DNA from: Chloroflexota bacterium
GTDB taxonomy: Bacteria > Chloroflexota > Dehalococcoidia > Lucifugimonadales > Lucifugimonadaceae
Assembly (NCBI GenBank): GCA_002718455.1
Contig: PBER01000002.1
Location: forward strand, 117,811-156,826
Direction: 5' to 3'
Length of the DNA: 39,016 nucleotides
This document shows positions 26,266 through 29,766 of this stretch, piece after piece. The notes beneath the pieces are model-generated. The model was not told where the DNA came from. It worked only from the letters and a program-made list of their open reading frames with translations, and did not search any database. Position numbers and translations under genes: made by a program. Numbering within the stretch: position 1 is the first letter of the stretch; each line of letters opens with the position of its first letter.

Positions 26266-27561
26266 TTATTGAACCTTAATTATTTTGTGATTTTTTTTAC
26301 CTTTAGAAACAATAATCACTTTACCTGCTTTTAAGTCATTTGTAGTAATAATTTTTTCTTCGTCGTTAATCTTGATACCATTAATAGAAATTCCTCCTTG
26401 CTGTATAAGCCTTTTGGATTCTCCAATTGATTTACAAATATAATAATCAACCGTTAATTTATTTATATCAATTCCTTTTTGCAATAATTTTTTGTTTATA
26501 TTAGCTGTGGTATTTGAATTTCTATATAAATCTTCATAATCAGAATCTACCAATATTTCCCAATCCCCAAAATTTAATCCCTGTGTTTGTCGTTTGGCAT
26601 CTTCTAGTCCTTTTTCACCGTGAACCAGTTTGGTTATTTCTTCCGCAAGATATTTTTGAGCATTTCTAGAAGAAGCATTTTTACTTGCTTCTATTTCTAA
26701 TTCTGTAAATTCTCCAACACTTATATTGGTAAAAATTCTAATATAATTTAGAACATCTTTATCAGATGTGTTGAAAAAATATTGATAAAGCTTATATGGG
26801 ATCGTTTCATTGGAATCAATAGTGATAGCTCCTTCGATACTTTTGCCGAATTTTTCTCCGTTAGCTGTTGTTAATAGCGGGTACGTTATACCATGAGCTT
26901 TATGCTTTTGGGATGGATTTTTTTTTCTTATTAGTTCTATACCAGATAATATGTTCCCCCACTGATCAGAACCTCCCATTTGAAAATTACAATTATAATG
27001 TTCATAAAGGTACAAATAATCATACGCTTGGAGTAATTGATAGCTAAATTCTGTAAATGAAATTCCGTCTTCTCTAGAGATTCTATTTTGAACAGAATCT
27101 TTATTTAACATGGAATTAATATTGAAAAACTTTCCTATTTCTCTCAGAAATTCTATTAAATTTATTTTTGATAACCATTCAGAATTGTCTATGATTTGAG
27201 CAGGGTTTTTTTTGTTTTCAAAATCTAAAAATAATTCTAATTGTTTCCTAATTCCTAATAAATTTTCCTGAAGTTTTTCTTTTGAAAGTAAGTTTCTTTC
27301 GTCAGATCTGCCTGAAGGATCACCAATCATTCCAGTGCCACCACCAATTATGATTATTGGAGTATGACCAAAATTTTGCAATCTTTGTAAACCTAAAATT
27401 GGTATTAAGTTTCCTATATGTAGACTTTTTGCAGTAGGATCAAAACCATTGTAACAAGTAATTTTGTCCTTAATTAAAATTTCTTTGGCACCAGGAGTGT
27501 AATCTTTTATAGATCCTCTCCATTCCAACTCTTCTATAATATTTCTGAATTTGTTATCCAT
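26266..27561 (-). CDS. tyrS: Tyrosyl-tRNA synthetase
   Basis: CYNGFDPTAKSLHIGNLIPIL, MGGSDQWGNI, ANGEKFGKS (KMSKS-like), C-terminal S4 domain. Confidence 0.96.
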   Translation of the reverse strand: MDNKFRNIIEELEWRGSIKDYTPGAKEILIKDKITCYNGFDPTAKSLHIGNLIPILGLQRLQNFGHTPIIIIGGGTGMIGDPSGRSDERNLLSKEKLQENLLGIRKQLELFLDFENKKNPAQIIDNSEWLSKINLIEFLREIGKFFNINSMLNKDSVQNRISREDGISFTEFSYQLLQAYDYLYLYEHYNCNFQMGGSDQWGNILSGIELIRKKNPSQKHKAHGITYPLLTTANGEKFGKSIEGAITIDSNETIPYKLYQYFFNTSDKDVLNYIRIFTNISVGEFTELEIEASKNASSRNAQKYLAEEITKLVHGEKGLEDAKRQTQGLNFGDWEILVDSDYEDLYRNSNTTANINKKLLQKGIDINKLTVDYYICKSIGESKRLIQQGGISINGIKINDEEKIITTNDLKAGKVIIVSKGKKNHKIIKVQ

Positions 27562-28501
27562 ATTTTTTTGGTTTCAAGATTTGAAATATGTTATTAATAT
27601 CTATTTTAATTTGTTTTTTTAATTTATCTAATGATTCATATCTTACTTGATCTCTAATTTTTTTTACTATTGATATTTCAATTGATTTATCATAGATATT
27701 TTCATTGAAATCTATAATATGTACTTCAATTTTATGTTCATGTTTATTTTTGAGTGTGGGTCTGTTACCTATAGATAATGCACCAAAACAGGTTTTATTA
27801 TCAATGTTAACGTAGCAAGCATAGATTCCATCTCCAGGAGCTAAAATTTCTGGGGAAATTTTCAAATTCGCTGTAGGGAATCCTAATTCACTACCAATTC
27901 GATCACCTTTAATTACTTTGCCTTTAACTTTGTAAAGGTCTCCTAAGTATGAGTTAGCCTTCTCAATGTTGCCACTTTTAATCAATGAATTAATTGAAGA
28001 AGTAGATATAATTTGTTCATTTAATTTGTTCATTTTTACAAAAGTTAATCCAAGTTTTAAATTTTCACAAAGTGTAGACAAAACATCACCAGAAAGTTGA
28101 TCGTAGCCAAGTTTAGTTTTTTCACTAACAATTAAATGCTTTATATTAGCTAACTTTATTAACAAACAAAGAAATTCTTTAGCAGATAAATTTTTTATTT
28201 CATTGTTAAAATCCAAGGGATAAATGTAATCTATTCCTTCTTGAGATATTTTGTTTATTCTGAAATTCAAGTCTGAAAGATACAAACGCTTTTCATTTTT
28301 ATTAATGAATTCTCTTGGTCTTTTTTTGAAAACTATAGTTATGGATTTTAAATTATTTTTTTTAGCTATGAAATTTGTTTTTTCCAATAATAGTTTATGC
28401 CCTTTATGAACACCATCAAATGTTCCTATACATAAAGCAGTTTTATTATGATTTATAATTTTTGAAAGATTATTTAACTGATCAACAGTTTTTTTTATCA
28501 T
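27554..28501 (-). CDS. ribF: Bifunctional riboflavin kinase/FAD synthetase
   Basis: ALCIGTFDGVHKGHKLLL, KGDRIGSELGFPTANL, IRDQVRYESLDKLKKQI. Confidence 0.93.
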   Translation of the reverse strand: MIKKTVDQLNNLSKIINHNKTALCIGTFDGVHKGHKLLLEKTNFIAKKNNLKSITIVFKKRPREFINKNEKRLYLSDLNFRINKISQEGIDYIYPLDFNNEIKNLSAKEFLCLLIKLANIKHLIVSEKTKLGYDQLSGDVLSTLCENLKLGLTFVKMNKLNEQIISTSSINSLIKSGNIEKANSYLGDLYKVKGKVIKGDRIGSELGFPTANLKISPEILAPGDGIYACYVNIDNKTCFGALSIGNRPTLKNKHEHKIEVHIIDFNENIYDKSIEISIVKKIRDQVRYESLDKLKKQIKIDINNIFQILKPKKYG

Positions 28502-28515
28502 GCTATTACTATAAT

Positions 28516-29562
28516 TTAGGTGCCTAGTTGTTCATTTGCTTGCAAAATAATTTCTTCTGTTTTTTCCCATCCAACACATTTATCAGTTATGGATACACCA
28601 TATTCTAAAGCAGTTGTATCTGAATTTAAACTTTGGCTTCCTGGATTTATATTACTTTCTAACATTATGCCTATAATGTTTTTATTACCAGATGTTATTT
28701 GATTTATAACATTATCAAAAACAATAGGCTGTCGATTATGATCCTTATTAGAATTCCCATGTGAACAATCAACTACGATATTAGGCTTAAGATTGTTTTT
28801 ATTTAATAATTGTTGAGCATTTTTTACAGATTCTTCATCATAATTTGGTCCCGAAGCTCCTCCTCGTAAAATTAAATGATTTGCCTTATTTCCATTAGTT
28901 ACAACTACTGAAGTTTTTCCATCATGATCAATACCTAAAAAAGCATGTTCCCCTTCACACGCAATCATACCATCTATGGCTAATTGAACAGAACCACCTG
29001 TGCCATTTTTAAAACCTATTGGCATTGATAATCCACTTGCCATTTGCCTGTGTGTTTGACTTTCTGCAGTTCTGGCTCCTATGGCTCCCCAAGAAACTAA
29101 ATCTCCAATATATTGAGGAGTAAAAGGATCTAGAAATTCAGTTGCTGTTGGTAGTCCAATATCAGTGATTTCTGATAAAATTTTTCTAGCCATATTAATT
29201 CCTTTAGGAATATTAAATGTACCATTTAAGTCCGGATCATTAATTAGACCTTTCCAACCTATTGTTGTTCTAGGTTTTTCGAAATAAACTCTCATTACTA
29301 TGAAAATATTTTCTTTTACTTTTTCGGAAAGTTTTTTTAATTTTTTTGCATATTCTATTCCAGCTTTTGTATCATGAATTGAACAAGGGCCAACTAAAAG
29401 TAATAGTCTTTCGTCTTTACCAGAAATAATTTTTTGGATACTTATCCTTGAATTTTCCACCAGTTTTGCTTGATTCACTTTTAGAGGAATTTTTTCAAAA
29501 TATGATTCTGGTGATGGAAGAGTTGTTAGTTCTTTTATATTTAGATTTTGTATTTTGTTCAA
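28516..29562 (-). CDS. aroG: 3-deoxy-7-phosphoheptulonate synthase (type I, AroG-like)
   Basis: LLVGPCSIHD, RVYFEKPRTTIGWKGLINDPDL, WGAIGARTAESQTHRQMASGLSMPIGFKNGTGG, VDCSHGNSNKDH; TTG start at 29562 chosen because AAGGAG (29574-29569) lies 6 nt upstream. Confidence 0.93.
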   Translation of the reverse strand: MNKIQNLNIKELTTLPSPESYFEKIPLKVNQAKLVENSRISIQKIISGKDERLLLLVGPCSIHDTKAGIEYAKKLKKLSEKVKENIFIVMRVYFEKPRTTIGWKGLINDPDLNGTFNIPKGINMARKILSEITDIGLPTATEFLDPFTPQYIGDLVSWGAIGARTAESQTHRQMASGLSMPIGFKNGTGGSVQLAIDGMIACEGEHAFLGIDHDGKTSVVVTNGNKANHLILRGGASGPNYDEESVKNAQQLLNKNNLKPNIVVDCSHGNSNKDHNRQPIVFDNVINQITSGNKNIIGIMLESNINPGSQSLNSDTTALEYGVSITDKCVGWEKTEEIILQANEQLGT

Positions 29563-29595
29563 TTTTTTCTCCTTAAAAATTCTTAATCTCAATTA

Positions 29596-29625
29596 AATAA
29601 AAAAAAGACTCGTATCAGAGTCTTT
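29596..29625 (-). terminator. Intrinsic terminator immediately upstream of aroG
   Basis: Reverse strand AAAGACTC-TGATAC-GAGTCTTT followed by a T run. Confidence 0.85.
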
Positions 29626-29672
29626 AGAGTTATTTAAATCTACGAATGAATACTACAAAGACTCCAATCTTT
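29604..29672 (-). promoter_or_regulatory. Candidate Tyr/Phe-responsive transcription attenuator of aroG
   Basis: Reverse strand: segment 1 AAAGA 672-668, 2 GAGTCTTT 664-657, 3 AAAGACTC 625-618, 4 GAGTCTTT 611-604 (+29000); 1:2, 2:3 and 3:4 can pair, 2:3 mutually exclusive with 3:4. Confidence 0.75.
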
Positions 29673-29709
29673 CAAAAAAATAATAATATGTATAAAATTT
29701 AGTTTTCAT
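29653..29709 (-). CDS. Putative Tyr/Phe-rich leader peptide MKTKFYTYYYFFERLESL
   Basis: ATG AAA ACT AAA TTT TAT ACA TAT TAT TAT TTT TTT GAA AGA TTG GAG TCT TTG TAG; 7 of 18 codons Tyr/Phe, ending inside the alternative hairpin array before aroG. Confidence 0.75.
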   Translation of the reverse strand: MKTKFYTYYYFFERLESL

Positions 29710-29766
29710 CGTTTTTTTGCTTATTCAGTTCTAGTGTAACTTAATTTTTCAGAAATTTCCTACGAT

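Follow-up and report, generated by a model that had tools for sequence, protein, structure and literature searches.

The minus-strand stretch 29709-29599 is very probably a ribosome-mediated transcription attenuator that senses tyrosyl-tRNA, and perhaps also phenylalanyl-tRNA, ahead of a DAHP synthase gene. Of the readings considered, ribosome-mediated attenuation is clearly the strongest for a module with defined parts, conservation among relatives, mutually exclusive pairing and a predicted dependence on ribosome position, and we infer that the leader is transcribed and translated with tRNA-Tyr as the signal. The whole stretch of DNA that was analysed (39,016 nucleotides, hereafter the window) comes from a genome of the SAR202 cluster (Chloroflexota, Dehalococcoidia), and the relatives obtained by protein search were SAR202-cluster and other Dehalococcoidia/Chloroflexi MAGs.

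Parts of the leader and its probable operon

The features of the leader and of the genes that follow it are listed below.

29733-29762, minus strand: candidate promoter, TAGGAA, 18 nt, TACACT; low confidence, without a consensus -35
29653-29709, minus strand: leader peptide ORF, ATG to TAG, 18 codons, encoding MKTKFYTYYYFFERLESL
29667-29672, minus strand: segment 1, AAAGAT, partner of the 3' part of segment 2 in a weak protector hairpin
29657-29664, minus strand: segment 2, GAGTCTTT, overlapping leader codons 16-18
29618-29625, minus strand: segment 3, AAAGACTC, common to the antiterminator 2:3 and the terminator 3:4
29604-29611, minus strand: segment 4, GAGTCTTT again, the 3' arm of the terminator
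29599-29606, minus strand: T8 tract (eight T) of the intrinsic terminator
28516-29562, minus strand: aroG, AroFGH-type DAHP synthase, the regulated gene; TTG start at 29562 (ATG in relatives) with AAGGAG ahead
27554-28501, minus strand: ribF, 14 nt after aroG, probably on the same transcript
26266-27561, minus strand: tyrS, overlapping ribF by 8 nt, probably on the same transcript

A sequence-only reading had described the leader ORF, the repeated 8-mer and its complement, and both its coordinates and its letters match the minus strand base for base. The leader peptide contains four Tyr (codons 6, 8, 9 and 10) and three Phe (codons 5, 11 and 12), and segment 3 is the exact complement of the 8-mer whose two copies flank it. 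The 3:4 hairpin was recovered independently by a terminator scan, and the intrinsic terminator is located between the leader and the first gene. The Shine-Dalgarno sequence of the leader is weak in the window copy, as had been remarked, and in relatives AAGG, AGGA, AGGG or AGAG stands at the expected position.

Both strands of the 39 kb hold 921 short ORFs, two of which reach 7 Tyr/Phe per 10 residues. Exactly one ORF of the window starts with ATG, has 6 or more Tyr/Phe per 10 residues and is trailed, no more than some 110 nt away, by a perfect hairpin with a T run; 30 dinucleotide shuffles of the window produced none. Segment 3 matches the region of segment 2 better than shuffles do (p = 0.004). 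The folding stability of the whole leader, an uninformative measure here, is not higher than that of shuffles (z -1.0).

On the minus strand the gene order is trpA, an aroH-type chorismate mutase, the leader, the AroFGH-type DAHP synthase, ribF, tyrS and polA (the last named by sequence only). The identification of the next gene as DAHP synthase stands, and its pathway matches the codons of the leader. All nine genomes of the genus retain the order trpA-aroH-aroG-ribF-tyrS, as does most of the remaining family where the contig allows. Since the gap between aroG and ribF is 14 nt and ribF and tyrS overlap by 8 nt, a single transcript is suggested; judging from this spacing the attenuator probably sets tyrS as well, with aroG-ribF-tyrS as the controlled unit. 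Neither a second DAHP synthase nor a type II enzyme was found by protein search of the window's genome, the assembly of which is 83% complete.

According to the proposed mechanism, a ribosome would begin the leader while RNA polymerase continues. When charged tRNA-Tyr is scarce the ribosome would stall at Tyr6-Tyr10 and leave segment 2 free, which would then pair with segment 3, block the terminator and permit transcription of aroG-ribF-tyrS. When Tyr is plentiful the ribosome would reach the stop codon and mask segment 2, and the 3:4 terminator would form.

Predicted dependence of the pairing on ribosome position

In the switch model a ribosome was set at each codon of the leader and the downstream RNA was folded, giving equilibrium numbers, unlike real attenuation, which is kinetic. 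For the window copy the probability of the antiterminator was 0.92, 0.95, 0.96, 0.94 and 0.70 with the A site at Y6, T7, Y8, Y9 and Y10, respectively; it fell to 0.25 at F11 and 0.16 at F12. With the A site at E13 or beyond it was 0, and the terminator reached 0.98. Ribosome footprints of 9-15 nt moved the switch by 1-2 codons only. When the sequence from the core to segment 3 was shuffled, the mean antiterminator probability was 0.07 and none of 200 shuffles reached 0.96. The earlier proposal that stalling at the aromatic run favours 2:3 while reading on gives the terminator is supported by the high values at Tyr6-Tyr9 against 0 past Glu13. Of the stall site it had named, YTYYYFF, the Tyr codons hold the antiterminator, but F11 and F12 come too late in the model.

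The other genomes of the genus were folded in the same way. L002-L006 and L008 act like the window copy, with a peak at Y8 or nearby, so that a mutually exclusive antiterminator freed by a stall at Tyr codons is predicted for the window and six of its eight relatives; in L007 and L009 the pairing is kept, yet the equilibrium model gives no switch (0.06 and 0.11). Outside the genus, the antiterminator peaks at or just after the Tyr codons in L048, L039 and L073, which belong to other families, and the thermodynamic switch fails in L049, L061 and L080.

The hairpin 1:2 is weakly supported in the window copy. A helix of 4-6 bp is possible in all nine genomes (-1.6 to -3.0 kcal/mol), and the hairpin that had been proposed at the 3' end of the ORF is present in every one of them, but in the window its best form, AAAGAT (29672-29667) with GTCTTT (29662-29657), is marginal at just -3.0 kcal/mol. 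With a ribosome that has got no further than the start codon, the antiterminator still has an equilibrium probability of 0.82, so in this model the window copy gains little from its 1:2 protector. The full window leader without a ribosome has a terminator probability of 0.72.

Within the model tyrosine would be the likeliest signal, and it is favoured over phenylalanine on two grounds: the model requires a stall at the position of the Tyr codons, and tyrS lies downstream. That the same attenuator answers to phenylalanine and not to tyrosine appears rather unlikely. A Phe signal gains some weight from the Phe codons that border the Tyr run in almost every leader (26 leaders contain 97 Tyr, 71 Phe and 9 Trp) and from the aroR leader of Corynebacterium glutamicum (Phe-Tyr-Phe), which answers to Phe, not Tyr (PMC11802643). 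On the other hand, stalls at Phe past the Tyr run cease to favour the antiterminator in the model (window, L003 and L006), Tyr8-Tyr10 are the invariant core of the genus leaders, and tyrS is in the operon. The aroR leader precedes the DAHP synthase of the aroF operon (Neshat et al. 2014, as cited in PMC11802643; also PMC4046766). It resembles the tyrosine-sensing attenuator favoured here in having an aromatic leader peptide before DAHP synthase and ribosome stalling that raises transcription, a comparison of function and layout only; it differs in its phylum and in being Phe-Tyr-Phe and Phe-responsive, whereas the SAR202 leader has a Tyr run and tyrS downstream.

Conservation within the genus

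A leader ORF of 13-18 codons, segments 1-4 and a tract of at least eight T precede DAHP synthase in all nine genomes of the genus. The peptides are MKTKFYTYYYFFERLESL, MKTEFYTYYYFFERLESL, MKIKNYTYYYFRHLESF, MNKNYYTYYYFRLAESF, MNKNYYTYYYFRLTESF (in two genomes), MKKFFYTYYYFRT, MNIFFNTYYYIKT and MKQFI.TYYYFRR; they have the TYYY core in common, and TYYY(F/I) is nearly unchanged. The reading frame through the Tyr codons is intact in all nine, one 3-nt indel preserving it. A 1-nt deletion 3' of the core places the stop just before segment 2 in L006, L007 and L009 and leaves the aromatic frame intact, which is what one would predict if codons past the stall site had no role; from the shifted stop a terminating ribosome is still able to cover segment 2.

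The nine genomes do not differ in segment 2; segments 3 and 4 vary together (A-U to G-C) or through wobble. When the three segments were spliced with N spacers and aligned, the share of paired cells was 96.8% in 3:4 and 98.4% in 2:3, and slid registers did not exceed 73%. The claim that 2:3 and 3:4 exclude each other is supported in that both pairings are kept in all nine genomes and folding by position gives the predicted switch in the window and six of its relatives. The alignment of relatives that the sequence-only reading had suggested likewise finds the frame through the Tyr codons and the pairings 1:2, 2:3 and 3:4 retained throughout, but the covariation is modest: only one position is fully compensatory within the genus (several retain pairing through wobble), so that covariation alone is modest evidence, and column shuffles often reach the pair-level measures. 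Directly 3' of segment 2, L003, L004, L006, L007 and L009 carry a conserved TTAGTGTGT that is missing from the window copy; located between segments 2 and 3, this stretch lengthens the 2:3 helix in some genomes.

It could be argued that the hairpin and T tract merely terminate the upstream trpA-aroH unit and that the short ORF arose by chance in AT-rich intergenic DNA: aroH ends 57 nt ahead of the leader ATG, and Tyr/Phe codons are frequent by chance at 30% G+C. We consider this very unlikely. The leader frame and segment 2 would then not be expected to persist in all nine genomes, and in three of these (L004, L005 and L008) extra DNA parts the module from aroH while the module remains next to aroG. 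The AT-rich sister genera g5, g6 and g8 lack such a leader, which speaks against chance. Beyond the genus, a leader and terminator precede DAHP synthase in nine families, among them that of L048, whose upstream DNA showed neither aroH nor trpA.

At the position of the candidate promoter all nine genomes have TA.ACT, with TTAAG(T/A) just ahead and a poor -35; the TA.ACT box is kept in L004, L005 and L008 despite their different upstream DNA.

Distribution across the order

The DNA upstream of DAHP synthase was taken from the order and the class, and a strict detector was applied that required 5 or more Tyr/Phe/Trp per 10 residues and then a hairpin with a T run 20-130 nt past the core. It was positive for 41 of the 125 upstream regions of the order and for 0 per round in five shuffles. 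The nine positive families are f1 (the window's genus only), f5, f6, f7, f25, f28, f31, f117 and f121; similar-looking leaders in L049 (f3) and L039 (f23) fall under the threshold. No leader of the window's type was seen in g5, g6 and g8 of the window's own family, nor in families such as f18 and f19.

The leaders include FYAYYYFT, RPFYFYAYR, YFTYYYYFK, FYYYFSSL and YGYFGYLF, and in most the T run begins 80-99 nt past the aromatic core. The leader region is complementary to the 5' arm of the terminator beyond shuffles in L039, L048, L049, L061 and L073 (p 0.002-0.006) and not significantly so in L060, L080 and L087. In f31 and f28 (two genera) the leaders show synonymous third-position changes and in-frame indels, which indicates that they are translated. 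L087, from the class but outside the order, has a leader-like ORF ending in RGFWGYFAFPRASGRLSRS before its stop, followed by a GC-rich hairpin and TTT, ahead of DAHP synthase; the attenuator arrangement may thus reach beyond the order. Within the genus, no leaders were seen before trpE, pheA and hisG, which closely trail other coding sequence. The gene just ahead of trpE in the genus (L092-L100) ends like TrpS by eye, which places a synthetase beside its pathway.

Across families the leader peptides are alike in aromatic content only, not in sequence. This counts against an action of the peptide itself, whether in trans or through arrest of the nascent chain, in place of codon-specific stalling. 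The almost constant TYYY(F/I) core of the genus and the trans functions known for peTrpL (PMC7298713) might be cited for such an action; its probability is slight. The families may descend from one ancient leader that has diverged beyond recognition, or their leaders may be of repeated origin.

Among sister genera in the window's family (g2, g3, g4, g7 and g9-g12), short aromatic ORFs precede DAHP synthase, for example those ending in FAFTGGRLYSS, FSFSGYFTRGHLYSS and FTLPGFGYPVYVYTSR before the stop codon. Short aromatic-rich ORFs whose stop codon is enclosed by a long hairpin, and which lack a U-tract terminator, were noted ahead of DAHP synthase in L010, L011, L013, L017, L018, L027, L040, L042-L044 and L051-L054, many ending in GRLYSS, GHLYSS or GRSYRS. 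Folding of the GC-rich sister leaders gave long hairpins around the stop codon in several of them, together with C-rich stretches, and no U tract. These ORFs are possible Rho-dependent or translational attenuators. We put forward only tentatively, and with some doubt, the joint reading that Tyr-codon attenuators govern the first step of the shikimate pathway, in many cases together with tyrS, throughout the order, with a leader turnover so fast that little but aromatic codons and alternative pairing is left, and that in the GC-rich sisters the leaders work without an intrinsic terminator, being Rho-dependent or translational.

Relation to known systems

Leader-peptide attenuation is a textbook mechanism (trp, phe). 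The SAR202 module shares with enteric trpL, pheL and hisL a leader ORF with codons of its pathway and the alternative antiterminator and terminator; it differs in the pathway step, in the lack of recognisable sequence similarity and in its marginal 1:2 protector. The His leader peptides of Firmicutes (PMC2965389, PMC9413887) are likewise cases of attenuation outside Proteobacteria and Actinobacteria, apparently of independent origin, but concern histidine and another phylum.

T-box leaders (RF00230) also sense tRNA charging, but they bind the tRNA directly and without translation. They occur in 143 of the 147 genomes of the order, and the window's own genome has one ahead of its branched-chain operon:

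L199:5306-5527 (G000:C3:81805-82026), minus strand: T-box leader directly ahead of ilvB-ilvN-ilvC-leuA

That aroG is controlled by a T-box, or by some other leader that binds tRNA or a metabolite, is nevertheless extremely improbable: the leader is too short for a T-box, and the Rfam search of the window and 20 related loci detected neither a T-box nor any other element at DAHP synthase, which refutes such an element as far as known families go. In f19, a family without the aromatic leader, a T-box is located divergently upstream of trpA (L200:546-759 and L201:621-850) and precedes an ilvB-like ORF in L200.

The mechanism is already known, and its lineage and its emphasis on Tyr are undescribed as far as the open-access literature goes. 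A search of that literature gave nothing relevant on attenuation in SAR202 or Dehalococcoides and no report in the phylum, in agreement with the sequence-only reading, which knew of no description in this lineage.

Biological implications

The attenuator would imply that transcription and translation are coupled in SAR202 cells, which are uncultured and in which leader peptides could reveal the amino acid that a gene answers to. One small genome would combine two sensors of tRNA charging, with branched-chain amino acids read by a T-box and aromatic ones by a leader peptide. The order-wide and quickly changing aromatic leaders in Chloroflexota argue for a repeated or an ancient origin elsewhere, and if the joint reading for the order is true, a single gene would display the conversion between modes of attenuation.
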